NCBI GenBank assembly: GCA_006503475.1
Contig: RSEH01000050.1
Location: forward strand, 123,110 to 187,109
DNA: 64,000 nucleotides
Source: Stentor roeselii
Lineage: Eukaryota > Ciliophora > Heterotrichea > Heterotrichida > Stentoridae
Direction: 5' to 3'
In this document: in pieces, positions 19,953 to 64,000 of the stretch
Layout of the letters: each line of letters opens with the position of its first letter
Numbering within the stretch: position 1 is the stretch's first letter
Notes under the pieces: model-generated
What the model was told of the DNA's origin: nothing
Databases searched by the model: none
Seen by the model: only the letters and a program-made list of their open reading frames with translations
Translations under genes and position numbers: made by a program

Positions 19953-21893
19953 TTAAATAACTGAAAGCATTAGAGTCTTGAATTCTTTGAGATCGATTTC
20001 GCCGTCTCCGTTTAAATCGCCTTCTGATACGAGTTTCTTGAAAAAGTCGTCGTCTCCTGTTTGGCCGAGGAACCTTCTGACTTCTTCTAGTGAAATTGTT
20101 CCACTGGAGTCCTGATCGTAAATCGCAAAAACGTTTTCGAGTAATTCATGTGATAATCTGCGTTGCCAGTCAAAAGTAGCAGTTAAGAACTCATTATAAT
20201 CCAAAAGTCCATTCAAATCAATATCACAAGCCTGAATAATATCCTTAACCGATCCAGCAGGACTAATAGACAACCCTTCAAACCCCCTGCTCAATTCCAA
20301 TTCAGTGAGTTGTCCATCACCATCAGTATCAAGTACAACAAAAGCATCTTTAAGTTCCCCAATTTCTTTATTAGTGACCATAGTAGAAGTAATAAAAGCC
20401 AAAGTTGCCTTTTGCAATCTTGAAGTCTTCTGAAACTTTTCCAGATTCTTCATCATTTCATTATTCAAAGTGACAGTCCTATTAATTTCCATAACAGAAC
20501 TCTGAACCCAAGGGCATCCCCAAGCTTCCTTCGCTGAGATCCTTCGCGAAACATCTTTCGTGAGCATCTTGACAACCAAATCTTTTGCATCAGAAGAGAC
20601 TTGTTTCCAGGCTTTTCCCGAGAACCTAATAACTCCTTTCCTTGACTTTGTCAAGATTTCTTCCTCAGTCTTTCCAGTGAAAGGAGCCACTCCAGACAAG
20701 AGAATAAAAAGAATAACCCCACAACTCCAAATATCATATTTTTCAGTGATATTCCCTGATGAGAACTCAGGAGCCATATAATAAGCCTAGATAAAATTTA
20801 CACTTCCGAAAAGATTTTGCCTGAATTGACCTGAGGACTGTGCAATGCCGAGATCGATGATTTTAACAGTATCTGATGAATTATCAGCAAACATTATATT
20901 TTCAGGTTTTAGGTCCATGTGGATGAAGCCTTTCTTATGAATGTGAATAAGACCTGATAATAGCTGGTACATGATTCGAGCTGCTGATTTCTCATCAAAA
21001 GTCTTTAAATGAATGATCCTGTCGAATAGTTCTCCACCAGTGCAAAGTTCAGTCACAATGCAAAGCTTGCTGACTTCTTCAACGACTTCAGTGACGCGAA
21101 TGATGTTTGGATGGTCTAAGGCTTTCAAGGTTTCAACTTCTGTTTGGATTTTTTTGGTTTGGTTTTCATCCAGATTGTTTTTTATTATTATTTTCACAGC
21201 TCTTTCCATGCGGCTTTGCACGTCGATCGCTTTTCGCACTACAGAAAAACTGCCTTTTCCTATAATTTCAGAAACGTCGTATTTACTGCGAAGTTCACAA
21301 GCTATCGAGTGGATGAAGACTTTTCTTAGAATTGGACTCACGATGTCTGTGATCCTCTTTTTGATAGAATTGTCTTTTACCAGATTCATCGCATCATCTA
21401 GTCCATCTTTTATTATCGCCACTTGTGAAGCGAGAATCGCTGAAGACTGTTCAATACCTGCAGAAATCACTCCACTTACTGAATTTACTCCTTTTTTCAG
21501 CATATTTTTCGAGATCTTGAAAGAGCTTCCTACTTTTGATGATAATTCAAGTGACTTTAAAGCTCCAATAGTTTCTCTAGTCGCAGTTTGCATAACCTTT
21601 GAGGTTTTTCGTTGACTGTCTCTAGCGGTTTCTTCAATTGTCTCAATGATTCTCGTTTTAGTCTCCGGGTTTGAAAGAGGCAGGTTGAAATCAGAGGCTA
21701 TTTGATTAGGTTTAAAAGGTTTTTTCACTTTTAGTGATTCATTTTCATTGGTGACGACAGGAGGTTCATCAAGACTGAGCTGCATTCGAGGACTTATAAT
21801 GTTTTCTGATTGACTGCTCATGTTCCGAGGGTCCTTCATTGTCGAATTTACTTCAGGTTCATTCGATGGTCGTTGTTGCTGGCAGCATCCCAT
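19953..21893 (-). CDS. Calcium-dependent protein kinase (CDPK), N-myristoylation motif, one 15-nt intron
   Basis: Exons are complement(20802-21893) and complement(19953-20786), giving 641 aa. I chose the start giving MGCCQQQRP (Gly2 for myristoylation, Cys3/4 for palmitoylation); the frame stays open upstream to 22040 but would overlap the divergent gene. The kinase domain (about 205-460) has GKGSFSVV, AVKIIIK, HMDLKPEN and DLG. The intron falls between FGS and AYYMAPE of the activation segment. Four canonical EF-hands follow: DTDGDGQLTELE, DIDLNGLLDYNE, DQDSSGTISLEE and DLNGDGEIDLKE. HRD is HMD with the catalytic Asp kept. It is a Ca2+-activated Ser/Thr kinase, probably membrane-anchored. 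The roughly 200-residue N-terminal extension is unrecognised. Confidence 0.94.
20787..20801 (-). other. 15-nt intron in CDPK gene
   Basis: On the coding strand GTAAATTTTATCTAG, phase 0. Removing it joins the FGS and AYYMAPE halves of the activation segment. Retaining it gives four extra residues and a TAG stop in the middle of the kinase domain. The A at position 10 fits a branch point 5 nt from the 3' end. Confidence 0.95.
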
Positions 21894-24319: not shown

Positions 24320-24483
24320 TTATAAGGATTAGTTACTGGATAGGATTATATTCTAAATCCCTTCAACTCTTAAAAAATCCAATTGAATCACATATGGTTG
24401 AATAAAATAATAAAACTAAAAACCCCTCAAAACACAAACAAAACATCTTCTCTAAATACCCAAATTCAATCTCTTATAAATCA

Positions 24484-26208
24484 ATGGAAGGTTATCTAAA
24501 GAAATGGACAAATATTGTAACCCGTTGGAAAAGGAGATATTTTATTCTCACAAGTAATCTCCTAATTTACTCAAACACAAAAGACGCGAAAGAACTAGGA
24601 AGGGTCTACATCAGCACCACATCAATACAACTAACTGACAAGCACATCATCGTCCTTGAAACCGGTCTGGCCACTCTTCAACTAAAAGCATCAACCGACA
24701 AAGAAACTCAAGACTGGTTCTTAGCTTTAAAACATTGCAAAGATACTCTCGAGTACCACGCAACAGAACAAGAATATTCCAGAAATCGTTTTGATAGTTG
24801 CGCTGATTTGATTGAATCTCAGACTTATCTTCAGAGGTTGCACTCACTTTATGCGAAACTTGAAGAAGAAGTTGATAATTTTCCAGAGGAACTTAAAGAA
24901 CATACTCAGATTTTCATGGAACTTGCGAATGAATTTAGAAATACTGCTTTTGATAGTCTTAACTTGTTGGATGAGGAGAGGAAGAAGGATTTGGATGATA
25001 AGGATGAGTTTATGTCGGTTGATGAGTTTGAAGATGCAAAGTCTCATGCTACGTTTTTTGATGATTTGAAAAATAGGGACTTGCAATTACCTTTTAGAGA
25101 TAAGTTACCTGTTTCTAGGAATCCTAATCAGAAGATTAATATTTGGAGAGTTTTGAAGGATACTATTGGAAAGGATCTTAGTAAGATGGCAGTCCCAGTA
25201 TATTTCAACGAGCCACTTTCCTTCTTACAAAGATTCACAGAAGACCTGACCTACAGTTCAATTCTAATAAAAGCATCAGAAGAGCAAGACCCATGCCTAA
25301 GACTAGCACTTGTCTGCTGTTTCGCAGTATCAGGTTACGCCGGTTCAGACGAGCGTCTAATGAAGCCTTTCAACCCATTACTAGGAGAAACATTCGAGTT
25401 AGAAAAAGACGGTTTCCGTGTAATATCAGAGCAAGTGAGTCACCACCCTCCAATATCCGCAATTCACTGTGACCACCCCGAGTTCGTATTTTACGCTTAT
25501 TCAAGAGTAAACACAAGCTTCAAAGGCACCTACCTGCGAGTGAAGCCCGAAGGAAAATTCCATCTTCTTCTTCACCGAACAAAAGACCACTACATCTGGG
25601 AAAAGCCCTACACGAACGTCAACAACTTAGTGATCGGAAAGGTAAATGTCGACCATCACGGCACCATTCTCGTTGAAAACCTCGAAACAGGCCATTCAAC
25701 AAAAGTCCTCTTCAAGAAAAAAAGCTGGTTTTCAAAAGACTTTCACCAAGTTTCCGCCTCAATCACTGACCTAGACGGAAAAGAAAAATTTCAAATCTCA
25801 GGACAATGGAGCAGTAGTTTAAAAATCACGAATAAAATAACAGGTGAGGAAATCATCGGCTTCCAAGTGAAGAACCCTCCATCAGGACATGACTTTTACT
25901 ATCATTTCAGTGAATTCGCAATGCAACTCAACCTTCCTCCAGAGATCATCTCAGGAGTGGCTCCGACTGACAGCAGAAGAAGACCTGACCAACGCGCTTT
26001 AGAAAATGGAGAAGTTGAATTAGCTGCTCGGGAAAAGCACCGGGTCGAAGAAAAACAAAGAGCAGCAAGAAAGATCAGAGAAGAGGCGAAAGTCGAATGG
26101 AAACCTGTGTGGTTCGAAACTGACCATGAAGGCGACTGGGTGTATAAAGGAGGGTACTGGCAGGCGAAACATTATCAAGAGTTTCAAAGATGTCCTGATA
26201 TTTTTTAG
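24484..26208 (+). CDS. Oxysterol-binding protein-related protein (PH + ORD)
   Basis: 574 aa. A PH domain (about 1-92, MEGYLKKW...RWKRRYFIL and a C-terminal Trp in QDWFLALK) precedes a helical linker and the OSBP-related lipid-transfer domain (about 220-550). The fingerprint EQVSHHPPISA lies near 316 and NPLLGETFE near 298. Such proteins exchange sterol and phosphoinositide at membrane contact sites. No FFAT motif or ankyrin repeats were seen, so this is a medium-length ORP. It ends TAG. The convergent TPR gene stops only 12 bp away, and if that TGA were read through the two stop codons would abut exactly at 26208/26209. Confidence 0.96.
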   Translation: MEGYLKKWTNIVTRWKRRYFILTSNLLIYSNTKDAKELGRVYISTTSIQLTDKHIIVLETGLATLQLKASTDKETQDWFLALKHCKDTLEYHATEQEYSRNRFDSCADLIESQTYLQRLHSLYAKLEEEVDNFPEELKEHTQIFMELANEFRNTAFDSLNLLDEERKKDLDDKDEFMSVDEFEDAKSHATFFDDLKNRDLQLPFRDKLPVSRNPNQKINIWRVLKDTIGKDLSKMAVPVYFNEPLSFLQRFTEDLTYSSILIKASEEQDPCLRLALVCCFAVSGYAGSDERLMKPFNPLLGETFELEKDGFRVISEQVSHHPPISAIHCDHPEFVFYAYSRVNTSFKGTYLRVKPEGKFHLLLHRTKDHYIWEKPYTNVNNLVIGKVNVDHHGTILVENLETGHSTKVLFKKKSWFSKDFHQVSASITDLDGKEKFQISGQWSSSLKITNKITGEEIIGFQVKNPPSGHDFYYHFSEFAMQLNLPPEIISGVAPTDSRRRPDQRALENGEVELAAREKHRVEEKQRAARKIREEAKVEWKPVWFETDHEGDWVYKGGYWQAKHYQEFQRCPDIF

Positions 26209-26220
26209 TTATTTGTACAT

Positions 26221-27093
26221 TCAGGAAAGTAGGTTTTTTAAACGGTCAATTGCATTTGAAAACCTTCGGAAACCGCCGGAGAATTTCTTGAGAAGATCCT
26301 CGCGATGAACTTGGTCTTCTTTTTCGTAGTCGGTTGACTGGTTCCTTGGCTTTACTATTGAAGGAAGTTTCTGGTCTTTGTAGTGATTTAAACCGTATTC
26401 TTTTAGTTTTATTGAACGGGTTGGGCCTAAGCTTGAAGATGCTATTTTTCCTTGTTCTCGCAGTTCGCGACGACTTTGGATGAAGGAGTTTAAACTGTTT
26501 GAATGGGTTTTTATGTGCTGGAGGGAGTCTTTTAACTTTAATGTCATCGGGTTCTGAAGGCCGAGGTTTTCACTGGCGAGGTTGAAACCGGTTTGGTAGA
26601 ATTTTAAGGATTTTTCGTATTTTCTTAAAATTTCGTGCTCGACTCCTAGGTTGTAGTTTGCTGCGATTAGGGAGTTTAGAACCTGGTCTTTTGTTTTATT
26701 GTCGTTTTCGTAACCTTGTAGGTATTTTAGTGCTGAAAAACAGCTGGATATAGCTTTTGAGTGCTTTCCTAAAGAGGAGAAAATCGCACAGAGGTTCAAG
26801 TGGGTCGTCGCCAAATCTAAAGGCTCTGCGAAGTTCTCAATTTCGATTTTCAGGACTTTTTGCAGGTAGTTTAAAGAAACATTCGGCTGTTTTATCGACT
26901 TATGGTAACAAGCCAGATTATTGTAAGTCACTGCCAGCAGATTTGGCTTATTTTCGAGGTTTAAAGATTTGTTGTCGCGTTCTAAGATTTCTTCTGCTTG
27001 TTGCAGCAGTTTTAAAGCATACTTTGGCTTATCAAGAGTGCTCATCGCCTGGCAGTTAAGTAGCAGGACATGAGAAGAGATGTCATCATCCAT
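26221..27093 (-). CDS. TPR-repeat protein
   Basis: 290 aa. At least four tetratricopeptide-like helical pairs occupy about 5-190, for example AVTYNNLACYHKSIKQPNVS, ATTHLNLCAIFSSLGKHSKA and AANYNLGVEHEILRKYEKS. A basic Ser-rich tail follows. It is a scaffold for protein-protein contacts; the partner is unknown. It ends in TGA (26221-26223), one of few in the window. Reading on gives four more codons (Trp-Met-Tyr-Lys if UGA were Trp) and then TAA directly abutting the neighbour's TAG. Confidence 0.85.
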   Translation of the reverse strand: MDDDISSHVLLLNCQAMSTLDKPKYALKLLQQAEEILERDNKSLNLENKPNLLAVTYNNLACYHKSIKQPNVSLNYLQKVLKIEIENFAEPLDLATTHLNLCAIFSSLGKHSKAISSCFSALKYLQGYENDNKTKDQVLNSLIAANYNLGVEHEILRKYEKSLKFYQTGFNLASENLGLQNPMTLKLKDSLQHIKTHSNSLNSFIQSRRELREQGKIASSSLGPTRSIKLKEYGLNHYKDQKLPSIVKPRNQSTDYEKEDQVHREDLLKKFSGGFRRFSNAIDRLKNLLS

Positions 27094-27689
27094 TTAGTGG
27101 ATTAATACAGATGAACTACAAGAATTAGTCAAGATTGAGCATAAGAGAAGGCTTGAATTAATTCAAGCTAGGTGTAAGGAGATAGAATTAAAGATTTCTG
27201 CAATAAATGTTGAAGTAAGAATCAGTTTATAACGTTAGTAATTTCAAGAAATAAGATTTTTTAAAGAAGGAAGATCTTTGGAGAAGTAAGATCTTTTAAG
27301 AAGTAAGATCTTTCAAGAATTAATTTTTTTAAGTAATAAGTCTTTAAATTCACATACTTTTTCAATAAGAAAGGCCCCTTAAGAAGTAAGGTCTTTTTAA
27401 AAGAATATCTTTCAACAATTCAGATCAAATCACTACCACATGAAAATTCATCTTAAAGAAAAAAAATCCTCAATAATTTCAATTTCCTAAAAATTTCAAT
27501 AATCCAAGTACCCTAAAATCTCGAATCCTTTCAGTTAATTATTTAATAACTATAACCTTTTAATAAAAGCACTATTCCAAATACCCTAAACCCCAATCTC
27601 TAATCCTTTCAGTGAATAATTTAACTATAACCTTTTAATCCAATCATTATTCAAATACCCTAAACTCAATCTCGAATCCTTTCAGTTAA
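27094..27689. other. Gap with two families of degenerate direct repeats
   Basis: No gene supported. About 27250-27400 holds several copies of an AAGAAGTAAGATCTTT-like string. Nearer the RquA-like gene, two diverged copies of that gene's own 3' end are found (see the repeat at 27505-27714). Otherwise the stretch is AT-rich. Confidence 0.7.
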
Positions 27690-27714
27690 TTATTTAATAA
27701 CTATAACCTTTTGA
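27505..27714. repeat. Three diverged direct copies of about 60 bp, the third overlapping the RquA-like 3' end
   Basis: Copies at about 27505-27564, 27578-27639 and 27651-27714 share ACCCTAAA, then ATCCTTTCAGT, then AACTATAACCTTTT. The last copy contains the final codons and stop of the minus-strand methyltransferase-like gene (KVIVIK, TAA at 27690). The stretch from coding end into 3' flank has therefore been duplicated twice downstream and has diverged by small indels. Confidence 0.85.
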
Positions 27715-28397
27715 TACAATCCTCCAAAGTAAGTTTCTTTTTTAATTTCTGAAACCTGAGGAATCCAGGTCCTTATCTCAGTCTTCCAAAGATCCAACGC
27801 GAAAGGTTCAAGATACTTCAAAATAGGAATCATCACATATCGAAAAGGATTCACCCAAGTCGGTTTATGATAATCCACAAAAACCGCTTTTCCTCCAGGT
27901 TTCAAAACTCTAATCGCTTGTTCAATAGTCCCTTTCCTGACATTTTCCGGCATTTCATGTAGTAAAAAGAAGACAATTACATTATCAAAAGAACCATCAG
28001 GGAACTCAAGACAACTCGAATCTTGCTGACTCAAGACAACATTTTCAAAGCCACTGATTTTTTTTTCCAGGTTTTTAAGCTGAATCTGAGCGACGTCAAT
28101 TACATGAATTTCTGAATTCGGGTGATTTTTCGCAAGTTTCTCAGTAAAGTCGCCATAAACGCAGGCGACTTGAAGGACTGTTGAAGGGTTTTTAAACTCG
28201 GCCAAGGCGATATCTCGAAGCTTGTAAAAATTGCCCCAGAGGATCAAGTTGACAAGCCATTGTCTTTCGAAGAACCAGACTGCGTTAGGATGGACGTAAG
28301 CCCACCAGTAGGTATCGGTTAAGTACTTCGGAAGCTGAGGAGCTGTGGTCTGCTTGTTTTCAGTGATGAGTCTCTTCAGCGATCTGATACCTTTCAT
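27690..28397 (-). CDS. rquA: RquA-like enzyme of rhodoquinone biosynthesis
   Basis: 235 aa class I SAM-fold protein. The diagnostic feature is motif I, VLQVACVYGDFTEKLA (near 65-80), which lacks the acidic/Gly-rich E/DxGxG of ordinary UbiE/COQ5 methyltransferases and matches RquA. Other RquA-like blocks are TYWWAYVHPNAVWFFERQW (29-47), FFLLHEMPENVR, LKPGGKAVFVDYHKP, EPFALDLWKTEI and the C-terminal FGGLYQKV. RquA converts ubiquinone to rhodoquinone, the low-potential quinone used for fumarate reduction in hypoxic mitochondria. The basic start (MKGIRSLKRLITENK) could be a mitochondrial presequence. RquA occurs patchily in eukaryotes and is attributed to lateral transfer. A COQ5-like methyltransferase is the alternative, but motif I argues against it. 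Confidence 0.85.
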   Translation of the reverse strand: MKGIRSLKRLITENKQTTAPQLPKYLTDTYWWAYVHPNAVWFFERQWLVNLILWGNFYKLRDIALAEFKNPSTVLQVACVYGDFTEKLAKNHPNSEIHVIDVAQIQLKNLEKKISGFENVVLSQQDSSCLEFPDGSFDNVIVFFLLHEMPENVRKGTIEQAIRVLKPGGKAVFVDYHKPTWVNPFRYVMIPILKYLEPFALDLWKTEIRTWIPQVSEIKKETYFGGLYQKVIVIK

Positions 28398-31882: not shown

Positions 31883-34096
31883 TTAACCGTTCACATCCTT
31901 CAAAGCTTCTTTAATAAATCCAATTTGACTCATATTTTGGGCTCTCATGCTTAGCAAAAACTTTGAACCTCCCTTTATCGGTTTTCTCACATTTGTGGGA
32001 ATGGATTGCAAACTCTCATCAAATCCACCGTGCTCGATTATTTCACGATGAAGAGTCACTTGCTCTTGAGTTATTTTATAGAGTTTTTGTTCAAGGGCTT
32101 CAATTTTATTGTTTTGTTCTTTGTTTATGTTTTGAAGTTCTTCGAGTTTTTTCTTGACGAATTGGTTTTCGATTTTCATATTAGACTTTTCATTAGCTAT
32201 CTTGTAATAAATATTTCTCAAATTCTCAGTCTCAAATCTATATTTTTCAATCATTTCTTCATCCTTTTTCTGATTACTCGAAAGTCTCAGTAGCAGATCT
32301 TGATATTTCGAGTTAACTTGACTAAGCTGAAAAGTAAGTCTTTCAACCTCTTTAAAATACCCATCAAGAAACTTTTTGAAAATATTTTCATCAATAGCCT
32401 TTTTTTCCCTAGTAATATTCTCAGCCAATATCTCCAAAAGTGGTGATTTTTCCCCTTCTTTTCCCTTCAAAACATCTTCAGCAATTTGAATTTTTTCCCA
32501 AAGTTTTTCATATTTATTGAACTCCACTTCAAAGCTAGCAATAGTATCAACTTCCACAATTTTTTGATTAACAGTTTCAAGTTTAACCGTTTCAATATTA
32601 TTCACAAGTTCAGAGACCTGTTTTTCAAGTTCAGTTTTTTCTAAAAAGTAAGTTTTCGCATCTTCAACTGAAACATTTTTAGCTTCCACCGCATTTTCAA
32701 GTTTTTCTTGAGTAGAGTTGAGAAGGTCTTCAATTTCTTCTAGTTTAGACTGCTGAGTTTTATGAAGATCTTGAAGAGAATCGAGTTGAATTCGAAGTTG
32801 CGAGATTTCATTTTGAAGCATTTCATTTTTTTCAGATTCTAAAGCAAAAGCTTCTCTTGTCTCTTTTAAGTCTTTAAGTAAAGCACTTTCCTCTTCTTCT
32901 TGTTTTGCTTCGAATGATCCTGAAACAGGGAGATTGATTGAGTTTTTCTTGAGAAGGTCTTCAAGTTCTAAGATATATTTATCTTTTTTCATCAGCTGTT
33001 CTTCTGCACGGGCAAGCATGAGTTTAAGTTCAGCGACTGTGAACTCTTTGTTGACTTTTGGCTTGTTTTTAATGCTTTTTGCACGTTCTCCGAACCTTAG
33101 GGTGCTGATTGTTTCAGATTCATTGAATGGTGAAGGCGAGCAGGTGATGATCAGAGAAGTCTTCGAGTTACCTCCGAGGGAGTCTTGAAGGACTCTAGTC
33201 AATTTCGAGTCACGGTAAGGAATATGGTTCGATTTCCCATCAGTCAAAGAATGAATCACTTTTCCCAGACAAGTCAAAGAAAGGTTAATATTTTTCGCCT
33301 CATCTAAAACTTTTCCAGTCGCTCCAGTTTTTGAGACTTTTTCTGATCCTGCCAAGTCAACCAGGTAAAGTTTTCCAGTCTTTTGAGAAAAGTCCTTTAA
33401 ACTCTTCTGGTTTATCTCAGTTATAAAAATTGAATGAGAACGAGAAGACCCTGCATTCATCAAAGTGAAACCAACTTCTCTATTTTGTTGACCAAGGTTC
33501 ATATACTGTAAAAGTTCATCTCCAGAGTTCACATAGTACTCGCTAAGTCCTGCGATATACACACCTCTCGCTTTATCCTCTTGAACTTTCAGGTCCTTTC
33601 TAGAAGGATCTATCAAATCCTTGATTTTTTCCAAATAAATCTCACAAAATCCGACCTTTACCAAGAACTCAGACTCGCCGTCTTGAGAAATTCCGTCAAA
33701 AACAGTGGAGACCATTCTAGGAATGATTCCTTTCATTTGGTCGTCGTATATGTCAGGACCTGACATTGTGAAAGTCTTTCCTGAAGAGGTCTGACCGTAG
33801 GCGAAGACTGTTCCATTGAAGCCATTCATTACGGCTTCTATTATCGGAAGGGCTGTGGCTTCGTAGACTGTCACTTGCTCTGAGTCTGGGGGGAAGACGT
33901 TGTCGAAAGTGAACTTCACGCTGCCGAATCCCTCGTATTGCTGGTTGATTGACACTGTCTTACCGTCTGGGGCAAAATCAGCCACGATCTCCATTGACTT
34001 TTCTTTTTCTCTTTCGTTTAAAGGACGGAATCGGCAACTTACTGCGATGTTTCCTTCGTTTGGTCTTGATGGGATTATTGATTTTTTTCCGGCCAT
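31883..34096 (-). CDS. Kinesin-1-like motor protein (paralog 1)
   Basis: 737 aa from the chosen ATG (MAGKKSIIPSRPN). The frame is open 20 codons further up, but that would overlap the divergent gene at 34133. The N-terminal motor (about 10-340) has GQTSSGKT (P-loop), AGSSRSHS (switch I) and LVDLAGSEK (switch II). The neck NKPKVNKEFTVAEL is followed by a coiled-coil stalk, and the C-terminus NVRKPIKGG resembles the kinesin-1 tail motif (IAKPIRxG) used in autoinhibition. It is a plus-end microtubule motor, by family inference. Two paralogs with the same neck and tail pattern lie at 51602 and 54011. It ends TAA. Confidence 0.94.
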   Translation of the reverse strand: MAGKKSIIPSRPNEGNIAVSCRFRPLNEREKEKSMEIVADFAPDGKTVSINQQYEGFGSVKFTFDNVFPPDSEQVTVYEATALPIIEAVMNGFNGTVFAYGQTSSGKTFTMSGPDIYDDQMKGIIPRMVSTVFDGISQDGESEFLVKVGFCEIYLEKIKDLIDPSRKDLKVQEDKARGVYIAGLSEYYVNSGDELLQYMNLGQQNREVGFTLMNAGSSRSHSIFITEINQKSLKDFSQKTGKLYLVDLAGSEKVSKTGATGKVLDEAKNINLSLTCLGKVIHSLTDGKSNHIPYRDSKLTRVLQDSLGGNSKTSLIITCSPSPFNESETISTLRFGERAKSIKNKPKVNKEFTVAELKLMLARAEEQLMKKDKYILELEDLLKKNSINLPVSGSFEAKQEEEESALLKDLKETREAFALESEKNEMLQNEISQLRIQLDSLQDLHKTQQSKLEEIEDLLNSTQEKLENAVEAKNVSVEDAKTYFLEKTELEKQVSELVNNIETVKLETVNQKIVEVDTIASFEVEFNKYEKLWEKIQIAEDVLKGKEGEKSPLLEILAENITREKKAIDENIFKKFLDGYFKEVERLTFQLSQVNSKYQDLLLRLSSNQKKDEEMIEKYRFETENLRNIYYKIANEKSNMKIENQFVKKKLEELQNINKEQNNKIEALEQKLYKITQEQVTLHREIIEHGGFDESLQSIPTNVRKPIKGGSKFLLSMRAQNMSQIGFIKEALKDVNG

Positions 34097-34132
34097 TATT
34101 TTTACTAGATTTTCATTGCTTATTGAAATTTT

Positions 34133-36616
34133 ATGGGGAATAACCATCTTCATCACATCGATTCCCTAGTCCAGTACCCAGGGAGTTCTTTCCAACTAAA
34201 TGTCTTAGACGTAACACCTCCTGTGAGTGTCCTATCAAGCTACACGCGCCACAACCACTTCGTCTTCATCACATACGAGTCTGTAGAATGTTTTTACAAC
34301 AACTGCCGAGTCTACGCTTATTCATTGCAAAGTCCTCACAACATCTCCTCCTTTTGTCTATCTCCTCTTGACTTGTTCATTTCAGAGAGCACAGGACTTG
34401 TGACTCGTCTGGATTCTGTCACATTAGAAGTCAAGGATCAAATAAAGCCAGCGAAAATGCTTCCAGGTCGTGTTTCCAGCATGATTTTGTATAATGATCT
34501 GCTGTTTTTGGGACATATCGGCGGAGACATAACCGGAATTTCAATAGAAAATCATCAAATAGTTCAAGAGTTCAAATCAACTCATATAAGTCCCGTCGAA
34601 ACAATATCCATAAGCATGAGATACAACCTACTAGTAATCAGCCTTGGTTCAACAGAAGGAGCCAAAGCAAGAATCCTAAGCATTAAAAGAAAATTCTCTG
34701 TAGACCTCCTCGGAGTCAAAGGAAAAGTGAACGGCCTTGTCGTATTTGACGATAAAAATCTAATAATCGCTTGTGACTCTTTGAACCAGGTGGTTATCTG
34801 GGATTTGATCACTGGACACACTCTAGTCAACGCATTATTGCCAGAGTTCTTTCCAGGTTGCATAAACACCTGCATATGTAAAACAAGTCTTGCCCCCCTG
34901 GGCTTCGCTTTAGGCTTCACCAACAATGCAGTAGCGTGGGGGTACTTAGAGTACTCGGAAGAGGCCTGTCAGTACTTTTTCAAGTGGAAGGGAAGGTCGA
35001 AGTCGAGCACTGACGGCAACGTGATCAGTCTTTTGTACTCAAGTGATGTGAATGGACTGCTTCTTACTTCAGACAGAGCAATCACTCTTGTCTTGAATGA
35101 TTTGAATAAAGATGTCAAAGTTGTTCAGAACAAAAAACCGCTTTTTTCATTGAGTCAACATGAAGAAAACATTGATTATAGCACTAATATCAAGATATTT
35201 AGAAGAAATCTTACTAATAAACCTCCACCTGTCAGTCAAGATATGGTCAATCGAATTAGGGAAAGACTTGATGGGAAAAGAGGATCTGCCGATGCATTGG
35301 AAGAGAAAAAGAAAGTTGAAAATATAAAAAGTACTCAGGGTTCTATTGTTTCTGATAAGATTGAAGGGGATTCAGGTGAACAGAGATTGCCAGGGTTGAA
35401 GATTGAGGAGAAAGTTAAAAGTATTGTGGAGGTTGAGGACTTTAAACAGGTTTTGACAGGATTTAAAGATGAAAAAAATGGTTTTGAATATGGTTTTGAA
35501 AAAAATGAAAAAGATGAGGAAATTGGAAGTGATGAGGTTTATTCTGGAGGTGTTATGAGATTTGAAAAGGTTATGGGTGGAAGTGAAGCGATTCATGAAG
35601 TTATAGGCTTGGAAGAAGCGAATATAAATAAAAAGAATCAGTCAGTTTATCCTGAGCAACATGAAGAGTCTTTGCCTTTAAACAATCTTAAGGATTGGGA
35701 TAATGTGGAGGAAATCTCTTTAAACTCTATTCCGGATAAAGATTTCCTTTCTTCTCAAGTGCTCGAACAAGCTTATCAAGACAAGGCAGATCTTGTAGAA
35801 AACCGTTCAGAGGAATTCCAGTTTAAAGAATCAAAATCATCGGATTCAGAAGTGCTGAACCAAATTCACCTACTAGAATTACAGTCAATATATACAGAAG
35901 AACCAAAATTACATGAACCAGAATCAAAACAATCTGAGCCAGAATTAAAACCACTGGAACCAGAATCAAAGCCATTTGAGCTAGATTCAAAACCATTTGA
36001 GCTAGATTCAAAACCATTAGAACCAGAATCAAAACCATTAGAGCCAGAATCAAAACCATTAGAACCAGAATCAAAACCATTAGAGCCAGAATCAAAACCA
36101 TTAGAACCAGAATCAAAACCACTTGAACCAGTATTAAAATCATTTGAACCACAATCAAAACCATTAGAACCAGAATCAAAGCCACTTGAACCAGAATCAA
36201 AACCACTTGTACCACAATTAAAACCATTAGAACCAGAATCAAAACCACTTGAACCAGAATTAAAACAACTTGAGCCAGTTTCAAAACCTCTTGAACCAGT
36301 TTCAAAACCTCTTGAATCACTTTCAAAACCACTTGAACCAGAATCCAACTCCTCTAAACCAGAGCTTCCAAAACAACTTCACCCGGAAGAATCAAAATCA
36401 CCAAATCCACCACCTGCAGTCCAAACAACTCCAGATCCATCAAAGCCTGCACCAAAAAAGCCATCAACTCCTTTCCAGATTTTTTTATCCCATAAAAAGC
36501 CTGAGATTTTAAAAGAAAACCCTTCAGCAACACACAAAGAACTAGTAATGAAAGTGACTCAGCTCTGGGGCCAGTTAAGTGAAAGCGACAAGCTGAAGTT
36601 TTCTCAACCATCTTAA
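34133..36616 (+). CDS. WD40/beta-propeller-like protein with Pro-Glu-Ser-Lys repeats and terminal HMG-box-like segment
   Basis: 827 aa. The first about 340 residues form beta-propeller-like repeats (VQYPGSSFQLNVLDV, VVIWDLITGHTLVN and others). An acidic linker follows, then about 20 seven-residue units of the type SKPLEPE (nt 35930-36350), and a C-terminal stretch TPFQIFLSHKKPEILKENP ending LWGQLSESDKLKF. That stretch matches helices 1-2 of an HMG box and stops before helix 3. WD40 plus HMG recalls And-1/CTF4, but no SepB domain was seen, so orthology is not claimed. The starts MGNNHL and MAGKK of this gene and the kinesin diverge across 36 bp. It ends TAA, 15 bp from the convergent 7TM gene. 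Confidence 0.8.
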   Translation: MGNNHLHHIDSLVQYPGSSFQLNVLDVTPPVSVLSSYTRHNHFVFITYESVECFYNNCRVYAYSLQSPHNISSFCLSPLDLFISESTGLVTRLDSVTLEVKDQIKPAKMLPGRVSSMILYNDLLFLGHIGGDITGISIENHQIVQEFKSTHISPVETISISMRYNLLVISLGSTEGAKARILSIKRKFSVDLLGVKGKVNGLVVFDDKNLIIACDSLNQVVIWDLITGHTLVNALLPEFFPGCINTCICKTSLAPLGFALGFTNNAVAWGYLEYSEEACQYFFKWKGRSKSSTDGNVISLLYSSDVNGLLLTSDRAITLVLNDLNKDVKVVQNKKPLFSLSQHEENIDYSTNIKIFRRNLTNKPPPVSQDMVNRIRERLDGKRGSADALEEKKKVENIKSTQGSIVSDKIEGDSGEQRLPGLKIEEKVKSIVEVEDFKQVLTGFKDEKNGFEYGFEKNEKDEEIGSDEVYSGGVMRFEKVMGGSEAIHEVIGLEEANINKKNQSVYPEQHEESLPLNNLKDWDNVEEISLNSIPDKDFLSSQVLEQAYQDKADLVENRSEEFQFKESKSSDSEVLNQIHLLELQSIYTEEPKLHEPESKQSEPELKPLEPESKPFELDSKPFELDSKPLEPESKPLEPESKPLEPESKPLEPESKPLEPESKPLEPVLKSFEPQSKPLEPESKPLEPESKPLVPQLKPLEPESKPLEPELKQLEPVSKPLEPVSKPLESLSKPLEPESNSSKPELPKQLHPEESKSPNPPPAVQTTPDPSKPAPKKPSTPFQIFLSHKKPEILKENPSATHKELVMKVTQLWGQLSESDKLKFSQPS
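35930..36350 (+). repeat. About 20 x 21-bp Pro-Leu-Glu-Pro-Glu-Ser-Lys coding repeat
   Basis: Tandem 21-bp units (CCAGAATCAAAACCATTAGA type) encode SKPLEPE with variants SKPFELD, LKPLEPE and VSKPLEP. Two long frames on the opposite strand are by-products of this periodicity. The repeat gives a stiff, extended Pro-rich spacer between the propeller and the HMG-like end. Confidence 0.92.
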
Positions 36617-44399: not shown

Positions 44400-47300
44400 A
44401 TGCTAAGAAGTCTTTCAAGTTTTTCAAAGATTACCTTCGAAGAACTTCACAGATTAGCTAAACTCGACAGTTTGAACTTGAAAAACAATGAATCAGGAAT
44501 AAAGCTGCTAGAGCACTACGAAAATATTTTATCATCAAGTAAAAGTTGCATTCCTAAGATTTTGTGCAAGCAAAATATCCAAAACCGACCAAAATTCAAC
44601 TTCGAATTGGAAAACTTAACATCTCCCACAGAAAAACAAGAAATAATGACCAGCAAAATAATAGAAACTCTGAATCTTTTATGTTCTGTGGGTAATCTAG
44701 AGGTCAATTTAATTGAAGAGCTCCTTTTTTTCGGAAATTTTTCAGAGATGTACCATCCATTAGACCTGAAGTCACCGAAGCTCAAATCAATCTCAAAAAA
44801 AATCCCTCAGGTTATTAACATATTGAACAAATCACTTACTGAAATTTCGATAAACAAGTGGCTTAAGCTCATCGAAAGAATTGAATTTCTCTTCAATTAT
44901 CATCAGGTATATAAATATTTCATGCTTGAATCTGAATTCTTTCAAAAAAACCCTGAGAAGTTAGTTTTAGCTGCTAATGAAAGTGAATTGATAGACCTCT
45001 GCAAGTTTATTAATAAAGTTCATGATATATTCTGCGATTACAGAGTTCCTGACGAGGTGTTTGAGGTTCTAATTGGGAAAGACAAAATAAACATTGATTC
45101 ATTTGAAGATTTGGACTTGCTTCATTTATTAATAGCTTATCCTGTTGGCAGGGATCTCGACCATTCTAAGTATTTTTCAAGATTTATTGAAAACTTTGAA
45201 AGAATCCCGAAAAATCTCTTGATTGACCTGGCCGTGGTCATGAAAAATGCTGACTTTAAAATCCCAATGGAGTTGATTAAACAATTTGAGAATTCATTTG
45301 ATTTGTTTTTATTAGATATGCACTATGAAAAAAGTATCTATATTCTAAAAAAACTATTGAAAATAGATAAATTGTCTACTCAAGTACTAAAATGTTTTTG
45401 TGATCAGTAATTTTTACCTAGTCTCTCAAAAATTAACCTTAAAATTTCTCGATTAAATCCAATTTTTTACGATTTCTTCTCTCTTTTCTACAAGACCAAG
45501 AATTTCCACTTACTTCTCAAAAATATGCAGATGGTGAGCCACTTAGTCGACATCGCTCCACTACTTCCACCAGAGAAGAACTTACGAATAATATCAGCGT
45601 TCATTCATCACAATAAGGACTTTACAGATTTAAATCCATTAATCGAAAGTCTTTCAAAAATCAATGAAAATTTCCCTGTTAATTTTTTTCCTTTAATCGT
45701 AGAGGCCCAACAAGAGTTTCTTCGATATTCCGAGGAGAATGCAATATACACCTACCAGTTCAATTCTATAAAAGTACTAAAAAACGAATCACTTAACTCC
45801 CTTGCGAAGATCTGCAATGATTTTATCAGCACAGTTAATCCGAGTCATTATCTGATAAGTTCTTATTATTCAAGTCTTTTGGCTGAGTCTCTTCCACCAT
45901 TGGAACTTTTAGAGAACATTCAAAACGACAACCCTTTTTGGGCCAAGCTTCTCTGGCAATTAAGGGACGAGCTTCCAACCAAGGAAATTGCGAGAAAGGC
46001 CCTGGAAAAAGTGGACTTTTTCACTGTGAGTCCTGAGGTGTTGTATTATTTAACTTCTCTCAGTCCTTGTGAAATCGACTTTGATAAATTGAGCGACTCG
46101 GACTTTTCATTGGCTCTGGCTTACAATGATGCAAAGTCTCCATCGAATTTCCTTTACAAGTCAAAAAATATCAACTTTCGCATGATGCCCACTGAAGCTG
46201 TGATGAAAACTATTGTGAAACTTGTAGAATTCAATGATTTTAAATTTATCAAATCCGCTATTGAGTTCGTTGGATTTGTACCTGAGAAACACCCAAGGTT
46301 TCCAAGTCAACTTCTTAAAGATTTCTTTAAATCACTGACTGAAGTCAACCCTTCTCTGATCAACTCGCAGTCAATCAAGGTTCATTTGATGAAGATTTCA
46401 GAGCAGGTCCCTTTAGAAGAACTGGATGATATTCGGAGGTTTTTTGAATACATTCCTAAAAAACTCATTTATGAATTCATGGAAAATTCCACCTATAAAG
46501 GAAATTTCGCACCTTCTGATACTTCGAAAAATCTGCAAAAATGTAAAAGTTTTATTGAAAAGTTTAAAACTGGAGGATTAAGTCAAAACTTGTTTCATGA
46601 GCTGAAAACCATTGAATCACTAAATTTCGCTTATAAAGACTTCATACTTTCTCTGCTGAAAAATGAAAATTTCAATGATCCGGAAAATCAGAGCATAAAA
46701 GTAATTCTTGAGATTTTAAGTGGAACAACTGCAGAAGGAGAAATTCTTGAAAATATCATAAATCTTATAAACAAGCAGAATACTTGGGACTTGCTCAGCT
46801 TTCAAGATTTATGCAACTTGTGTCTACTGCATTCAAAGCACCCGATATTCATCCCTAAGTACATCCATCAGCATTTTTTATCAGTCATCTACGCGAAAGT
46901 GAATGAAGAAGAAATGATAAGAAACCCTTCTAACAACTTGCTTTATTTGAAACCTTTCAAGTACTTGACCGAGCTTGAGCCTCGAGGAGTGATAAGCAAT
47001 AATATCTTGAATCAGAAGGTAATCTCAGTTCATTCAAGTAGAGTCGAGATTCCTTATCACGAAGTAGAAAATAACATAAAAGTCCTGGCATATCTCAACT
47101 ATTTAGAAAAGCCTCGAACTCCTGATATTGATGAATCAGTTCGAATTTTCTTTAACAAGAGAAACTCAATCGATTCAGTTATCAAGAAAAAACTAGCAGT
47201 TTACGAGGACTTGGTAAAAAAGTACGGAAAGCTTAATGTGGAAGAAAACAAAATCGACGTTAACACTGGCTGGATCAGTGATTTTTTCATTCCTAGTGAA

Positions 47301-63924: not shown

Positions 63925-64000
63925 GGGTGTTAGGGTGTTAGGGTGTTAGGGTGTTAGGGTGTTAGGGTGTTAGGGTGTTAGGGTGTTAGGGTGTTAGGGT
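63925..64000 (+). repeat. Telomere, (GGGTGTTA)n
   Basis: Nine and a half perfect 8-bp units with the G-rich strand running 5'->3' toward the window edge, as at a right chromosome end. The complementary unit CCCTAACA is the heterotrich (Stentor, Blepharisma) telomere repeat. The junction with unique sequence is at AACAAAGGG. Confidence 0.98.

Follow-up and report, generated by a model that had tools for sequence, protein, structure and literature searches.

The rquA gene and its predicted product

The window, by which we mean the whole stretch of 64,000 nucleotides analyzed here, makes up the right-hand end of contig C356 in the Stentor roeselii assembly (44.4 Mb in 522 contigs). Its minus strand carries a gene, rquA, whose frame is intact from the ATG at 28397 to the TAA at 27690, with an in-frame TAA one codon upstream of the ATG. 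Aligned with bacterial RquA, the gene shows no inserted stretch and hence no intron. The features of the gene and of its predicted protein are the following:

27690..28397, minus strand: rquA coding sequence, 235 codons plus TAA stop, intronless; matches family model NF038261
28332..28397, minus strand: residues 1-22, basic disordered N-terminus, a possible mitochondrial targeting sequence (from composition and pLDDT)
28152..28172, minus strand: residues 76-82, RquA motif I QVACVYG (profile match and alignment)
28095..28097, minus strand: Asp101, putative counterpart of R. rubrum D118 (from position and spacing); invariant in 35 of 35 aligned RquA
28020..28022, minus strand: Asp126, putative counterpart of R. 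rubrum D143 (from spacing); kept in at least 90% of the 35

The RquA equivalog model of NCBIfam (NF038261, cut-off 175 bits) matches the product with 302.6 bits (E 1.6e-90) over profile positions 1-216 of 218, whereas TIGR01934 (MenG/UbiE), the next-best NCBIfam family, stays at 53.8 bits, below its cut-off of 158.35. Together with the motif and the alignment described next, this puts the family assignment far beyond chance. In RquA, motif I is described as having Gln and Val where an acidic residue and Gly are usual (PMC7813818, excerpt). The same replacement is found in the window protein, whose motif I reads LQVACVYG (residues 75-82). We aligned 35 RquA sequences, comprising 33 of 66 bacterial loci and the two ciliate copies discussed below. 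Residues L75, Q76, V77, A78, Y81 and G82 are invariant in all 35 and V80 is kept in at least 90%; the blocks YWWAY (30-34) and FLLHE (144-148) are likewise invariant throughout. Exact QVACVYG is present in 63 of the 66 bacterial loci, and a one- or two-residue variant in the other three. A sequence-only reading of this DNA had named the gene an RquA and not a COQ5/UbiE, pointing to QVACVYG and to several RquA-typical blocks. The position of the frame, the motif, common to bacterial RquA, and the blocks were all confirmed, and the identity itself is borne out by the profile scores, the motif, the tree and the presence of a separate COQ5 in the genome.

The RquA of R. rubrum converts ubiquinone to rhodoquinone with SAM as the amino donor and Mn2+, and it forms no product once D118A and D143A are combined (PMC9814641, excerpt). 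Asp101 and Asp126 of the window protein are 25 residues apart, as are D118 and D143, and the second ciliate copy has aspartates 97 and 122, again at a spacing of 25; the mapping onto R. rubrum RquA, which stands outside the alignment, rests on this spacing. The window protein is like R. rubrum RquA in family profile, in motif I and in the spacing of its two aspartates, the putative counterparts of the essential pair. It differs in being encoded by a eukaryotic nuclear gene, with a short N-terminus of its own, and in being known from sequence alone.

The predicted structure of the protein (pLDDT 87.0, pTM 0.85) resembles class I SAM-dependent enzymes among the best 50 of 1,940 structure matches. 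The pLDDT falls below 50 for residues 1-16. There are five Lys/Arg and one Asp/Glu in the first 20 residues, and the hydrophobic moment of residues 1-14 is 0.68. Such an N-terminus, basic, amphipathic and disordered, would be compatible with mitochondrial import.

Chromosomal context, genetic code and introns

The surroundings of rquA in the window include the following features:

20787..20801, minus strand: protein kinase gene, putative 15-base intron (GT...AG) containing an in-frame stop; within a long frame
24409..26208, plus strand: oxysterol-binding protein with PH domain (PF01237, 403.1 bits); eukaryotic context
26221..27093, minus strand: TPR-repeat protein (PF13424, 35.3 bits)
31883..34165, minus strand: kinesin (PF00225, 377.1 bits); eukaryotic context
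45407..45421, plus strand: putative 15-base intron with an in-frame stop; GT...AG, within a long frame
63925..64000, no strand given: telomere repeats (TGTTAGGG)n at the contig end

The unit TGTTAGGG is a permutation of the Blepharisma telomere repeat, reported as CCCTAACA (PMC9942806, excerpt). Eleven other contig ends were read. Two have the unit (C91 and C237, each on the right), and neither the left end of C356 nor either end of C17, the contig of the second rquA, shows it. Because its neighbors are eukaryotic genes and its chromosome ends in a telomere, rquA is chromosomal and not bacterial contamination.

The same sequence-only reading had called the gene telomere-linked and ciliate-codon-adapted, and each description holds in part. 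The TGTTAGGG repeats are real and the chromosome is telomere-capped, but 35.5 kb separate the telomere from rquA. Codon usage fits that of the neighbors (index 0.740 for rquA, against a mean of 0.726 and a range of 0.640-0.776 for 17 window ORFs), but the number of reassigned codons is zero. Over the 12 matched stretches to which the code count applies (2,735 codons; other matched loci lie outside it), in-frame TAA, TAG or TGA never occurs, all 36 Trp codons are TGG and all 99 Gln codons are CAA or CAG. The zero in-frame stops rule out a reassigned ciliate code, and reading rquA with table 6 only overruns its TAA stop, to 27666. Both rquA and the genome use the standard genetic code, unlike Blepharisma, where UGA encodes Trp (PMC9942806, excerpt).

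The GC3 of rquA is 0.417, and that of the 17 window ORFs averages 0.366. Among the nine bacterial rquA genes measured (from the 66 loci), seven have a GC3 of 0.69-0.84. Two AT-rich bacterial genes, L053 and L059, are nearly host-like in composition, so that composition alone is no proof.

The two 15-base segments listed above, each with an in-frame stop, would be removed as introns to leave long frames. Very short introns of such size occur in Stentor. They are reported for Blepharisma too, at 15 and 16 bases (PMC9942806, excerpt). Taken together, the telomere unit, the putative short introns and the standard code would fit a Stentor-like heterotrich. Downstream of rquA, at window positions 27500-27700, we noted by eye a stretch of about 60 bases (CCCTAAA...CTCGAATCCTTTCAGTTAATTATTTAATAACTATAACCTTTT) that recurs about three times, slightly altered; its last copy runs into the 3' end of rquA.

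A second copy and the ancestry of rquA

A genome-wide search with the RquA model returned seven matches, two of them above the cut-off. The second gene (C17:3943-4605) scores 292.4 bits against NF038261, and its product is 69% identical to that of the window copy. The single neighbor examined beside it is unlike the neighbors of the window copy.

A maximum-likelihood tree was built from 68 RquA rows, 66 of them bacterial and two of them the ciliate copies, with no other eukaryotic RquA included. The two ciliate copies are sisters (100/99) and are nested within proteobacterial RquA, in a seven-row group with two Magnetococcales and three Thiohalomonas/symbiont rows (97/91). The 66 bacterial rows were retrieved by peptide patterns drawn from the window RquA itself, and more distant RquA is therefore under-sampled. 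Identity of bacterial RquA to the window protein reaches 64% in the 35-row alignment, and the nearest tree rows (L022, L059, L053, L062 and L087) are 55-64% identical to it. These proteobacterial proteins, from Magnetococcales, Thiohalomonas-type symbionts and Competibacteraceae, are like the window RquA but are encoded on bacterial contigs; on the contig of the nearest, L022, the frames look bacterial by eye. The position of the ciliate pair inside proteobacterial RquA supports the lateral transfer that had been attributed to this family. The phylogenetic comparison of RquA with COQ5, proposed along with that claim, came out as expected for RquA: the ciliate copies, which were the eukaryotic RquA covered, stand apart from the genome's own COQ5 in one tree and within bacterial RquA in the other. 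Profile, motif and tree together identify the window gene as a genuine RquA of bacterial origin, carried on a ciliate chromosome.

In AU tests, for which the groups were named after inspection of the tree, a grouping of the ciliate pair with alphaproteobacteria was marginally rejected (p 0.0326); groupings with L022 (p 0.572), with the symbiont trio (p 0.302) and with the Competibacter clade (p 0.0856) were not. The test is compatible with these three and singles out no bacterial donor. RquA on plasmids was rejected. Of 72,556 plasmid records, 50 match, all below 60% identity, and the best 10 of these 50 show 22.9-32.7% identity, no more than ordinary methyltransferases do.

Two other accounts of the locus have to be weighed against an acquired nuclear rquA. 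In the first, RquA would be a misreading, and the gene would encode a C-methyltransferase of the COQ5/UbiE type that acts in ubiquinone synthesis. RquA and COQ5/UbiE belong to the same superfamily and have the class I SAM fold in common. A Pfam search of the product returned general methyltransferase families only, among them ubiE/COQ5, whose broad cut-off it passes (PF01209, 52.2 against 20.1 bits), and its structural model resembles yeast Coq5 with a TM of 0.67 (among the best 50 of 1,940 matches). However, the UbiE/COQ5-type models of NCBIfam give 53.8 bits at most, below their cut-offs and far lower than the RquA model gives, and the genome holds a separate COQ5 (300.5 bits) of another reaction, with a motif I of the ordinary methyltransferase kind (LDMAGGTGD, against LQVACVYG in RquA). 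The RquA rows split from this COQ5 and from four other methyltransferases of the same genome with 98/97, on very long outgroup branches. Scores, separate COQ5 and tree together rule this identity out, and we give it practically no weight. The other account is that DNA of a bacterium, either prey or symbiont, became joined to a contig of the ciliate. Heterotrichs take bacteria as food and also harbor them, and the identity of up to 64% to bacterial RquA would suit such an origin. Against it stand the oxysterol-binding protein and kinesin genes that flank rquA, the telomere repeats at the contig end, the host-like codon usage and the sister copy on another contig. Contamination is ruled out by the eukaryotic neighbors and the telomere, and its chance is negligible.

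Quinone and respiratory genes in the genome

Besides COQ5, the genome contains genes for the complex I 51K subunit (160.7 bits), canonical SDHA (934.5 bits), canonical SDHB (257 bits) and cytochrome c1 (159.2 bits). COQ7 (PF03232) had no match in the genome, and the control was matched in Caulobacter; the gene may lie in an assembly gap or have diverged, or ubiquinone synthesis may use a different hydroxylase. The AOX profile matched neither this genome nor the control genomes, and here the absence may reflect an assembly gap or divergence. The PFO domain POR_N had no match in the genome. The sole [FeFe]-hydrogenase-like protein found (L098, C339:62417-63160) scores 150 bits with Pfam (cut-off 22.1) and 104.4 bits with NCBIfam against a cut-off of 405.95; we take it to resemble the Nar1/NARF iron-sulfur protein. 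A metabolism based on [FeFe]-hydrogenase and PFO was rejected, as L098 lies far below the NCBIfam hydrogenase cut-offs and POR_N is without a match. This gene content suggests a mitochondrion, not a hydrogenosome, with complexes I to III in place and rhodoquinone as an option.

Proposed role of RquA

We think it likely that the two nuclear rquA genes, the window gene among them, derive from a proteobacterium and arose by later duplication, and that the product of the window gene, most likely mitochondrial, makes rhodoquinone for use at low oxygen. In this model the ciliate lineage would have acquired rquA from a proteobacterium before the duplication. The protein, most likely imported into mitochondria, would convert ubiquinone to rhodoquinone with SAM as the amino donor and Mn2+. 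At low oxygen, rhodoquinone would take up the electrons that complex I draws from NADH, and complex II, running in reverse as fumarate reductase, would reoxidize rhodoquinol; proton pumping by complex I would thus be sustained without complexes III and IV. We infer the mitochondrial location, the enzymatic activity and the hypoxic use of RquA from the predicted protein and the gene content. The hypoxia-tolerant respiratory mode that the sequence-only reading saw implied in this organism is plausible, because the genome has COQ5 and genes of complexes I, II and III; the LC-MS test on other heterotrichs described below, and the missing COQ7 match, speak against the model.

A different role has a small but real probability. 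The gene would then encode a true RquA homologue whose part in fumarate respiration through rhodoquinone has been lost in this lineage and that yields another product, or trace rhodoquinone for another use, the copies having diverged in role. LC-MS of Spirostomum and Blepharisma, in cultures said to be oxygen-depleted, detected Q10 and not RQ10 (PMC7813818, excerpt). The two copies of S. roeselii persist at 69% identity, a pattern reported across the class in the same source. Loss of the role is countered by motif I and the two mapped aspartates, which are kept in both copies, and rhodoquinone synthesis for low-oxygen use is the reading that we prefer.

The finding is already known and is at most one more species' copy, since ciliate rquA was published in 2018, heterotrich paralogues in 2021 and class-wide fumarate respiration in 2026. 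A ciliate clade was placed within Group B of the RquA tree by Stairs et al. 2018 (PMC5953543, excerpt). Mukhtar et al. 2021 count two to three rquA paralogues for Spirostomum; for Blepharisma and for Stentor the number is at least two, and three Stentor species have two RquA sequences each (PMC7813818, excerpt). Fumarate respiration has been called ubiquitous in Pseudoblepharisma, Spirostomum and further heterotrichids, and likely a trait of the ancestor of Heterotrichea (2026 ISME Journal, PMC13310139, excerpt). The likeness of these heterotrich paralogues to the window RquA extends to two to three genes per species, the Q/V motif I and membership in Heterotrichea; no difference was found, the likening being to the published description and not to sequence (PMC7813818, excerpt). 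What the eukaryotic genes and the telomere contribute is chromosomal context for a heterotrich rquA: a nuclear gene without introns, present in two copies and descended from proteobacteria. The literature searched gave no chemical proof that a heterotrich makes rhodoquinone, and the sole LC-MS test found is the negative one.

A divergent pair of complex II paralogues

The genome also encodes a second SDHA-like and a second SDHB-like protein, both in intact frames and both with mitochondrial subunits as best matches. SDHA2 (L097, C59:53303-54901) scores 360.6 bits, below the cut-off of 727.35, and SDHB2 (L104, C62:67049-67702) scores 152 bits, above the cut-off of 88. Compared with canonical SDHA, SDHA2 has kept the GxGxxG stretch and has lost what we take, from known SDHA, to be the flavin-linking His and the dicarboxylate-site His and Arg. 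With cluster ligands presumed after E. coli SdhB, SDHB2 keeps the four 2Fe-2S and the four 4Fe-4S cysteines and none of the three 3Fe-4S ligands. The two look like a complex-II-derived pair with a new role, putatively non-catalytic or rewired. Ascaris has a dedicated fumarate-reductase isoform; an isoform of the Ascaris kind was rejected here, SDHA2 being without the catalytic residues. Tetrahymena complex II is described as SDHA-D with 11 ciliate-specific subunits, and the excerpted text mentions no pair like SDHA2/SDHB2 (PMC10060162, excerpt); no title on such an SDHA/SDHB paralogue pair was among the literature matches listed.

It is very improbable, in our estimate, that the aminoquinone from one RquA paralogue goes to a partner different from ordinary complex II, perhaps SDHA2/SDHB2, a link drawn from co-occurrence in one genome only. 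If true, SDHA2/SDHB2 would act as an electron module derived from complex II and would neither oxidize succinate nor reduce fumarate.
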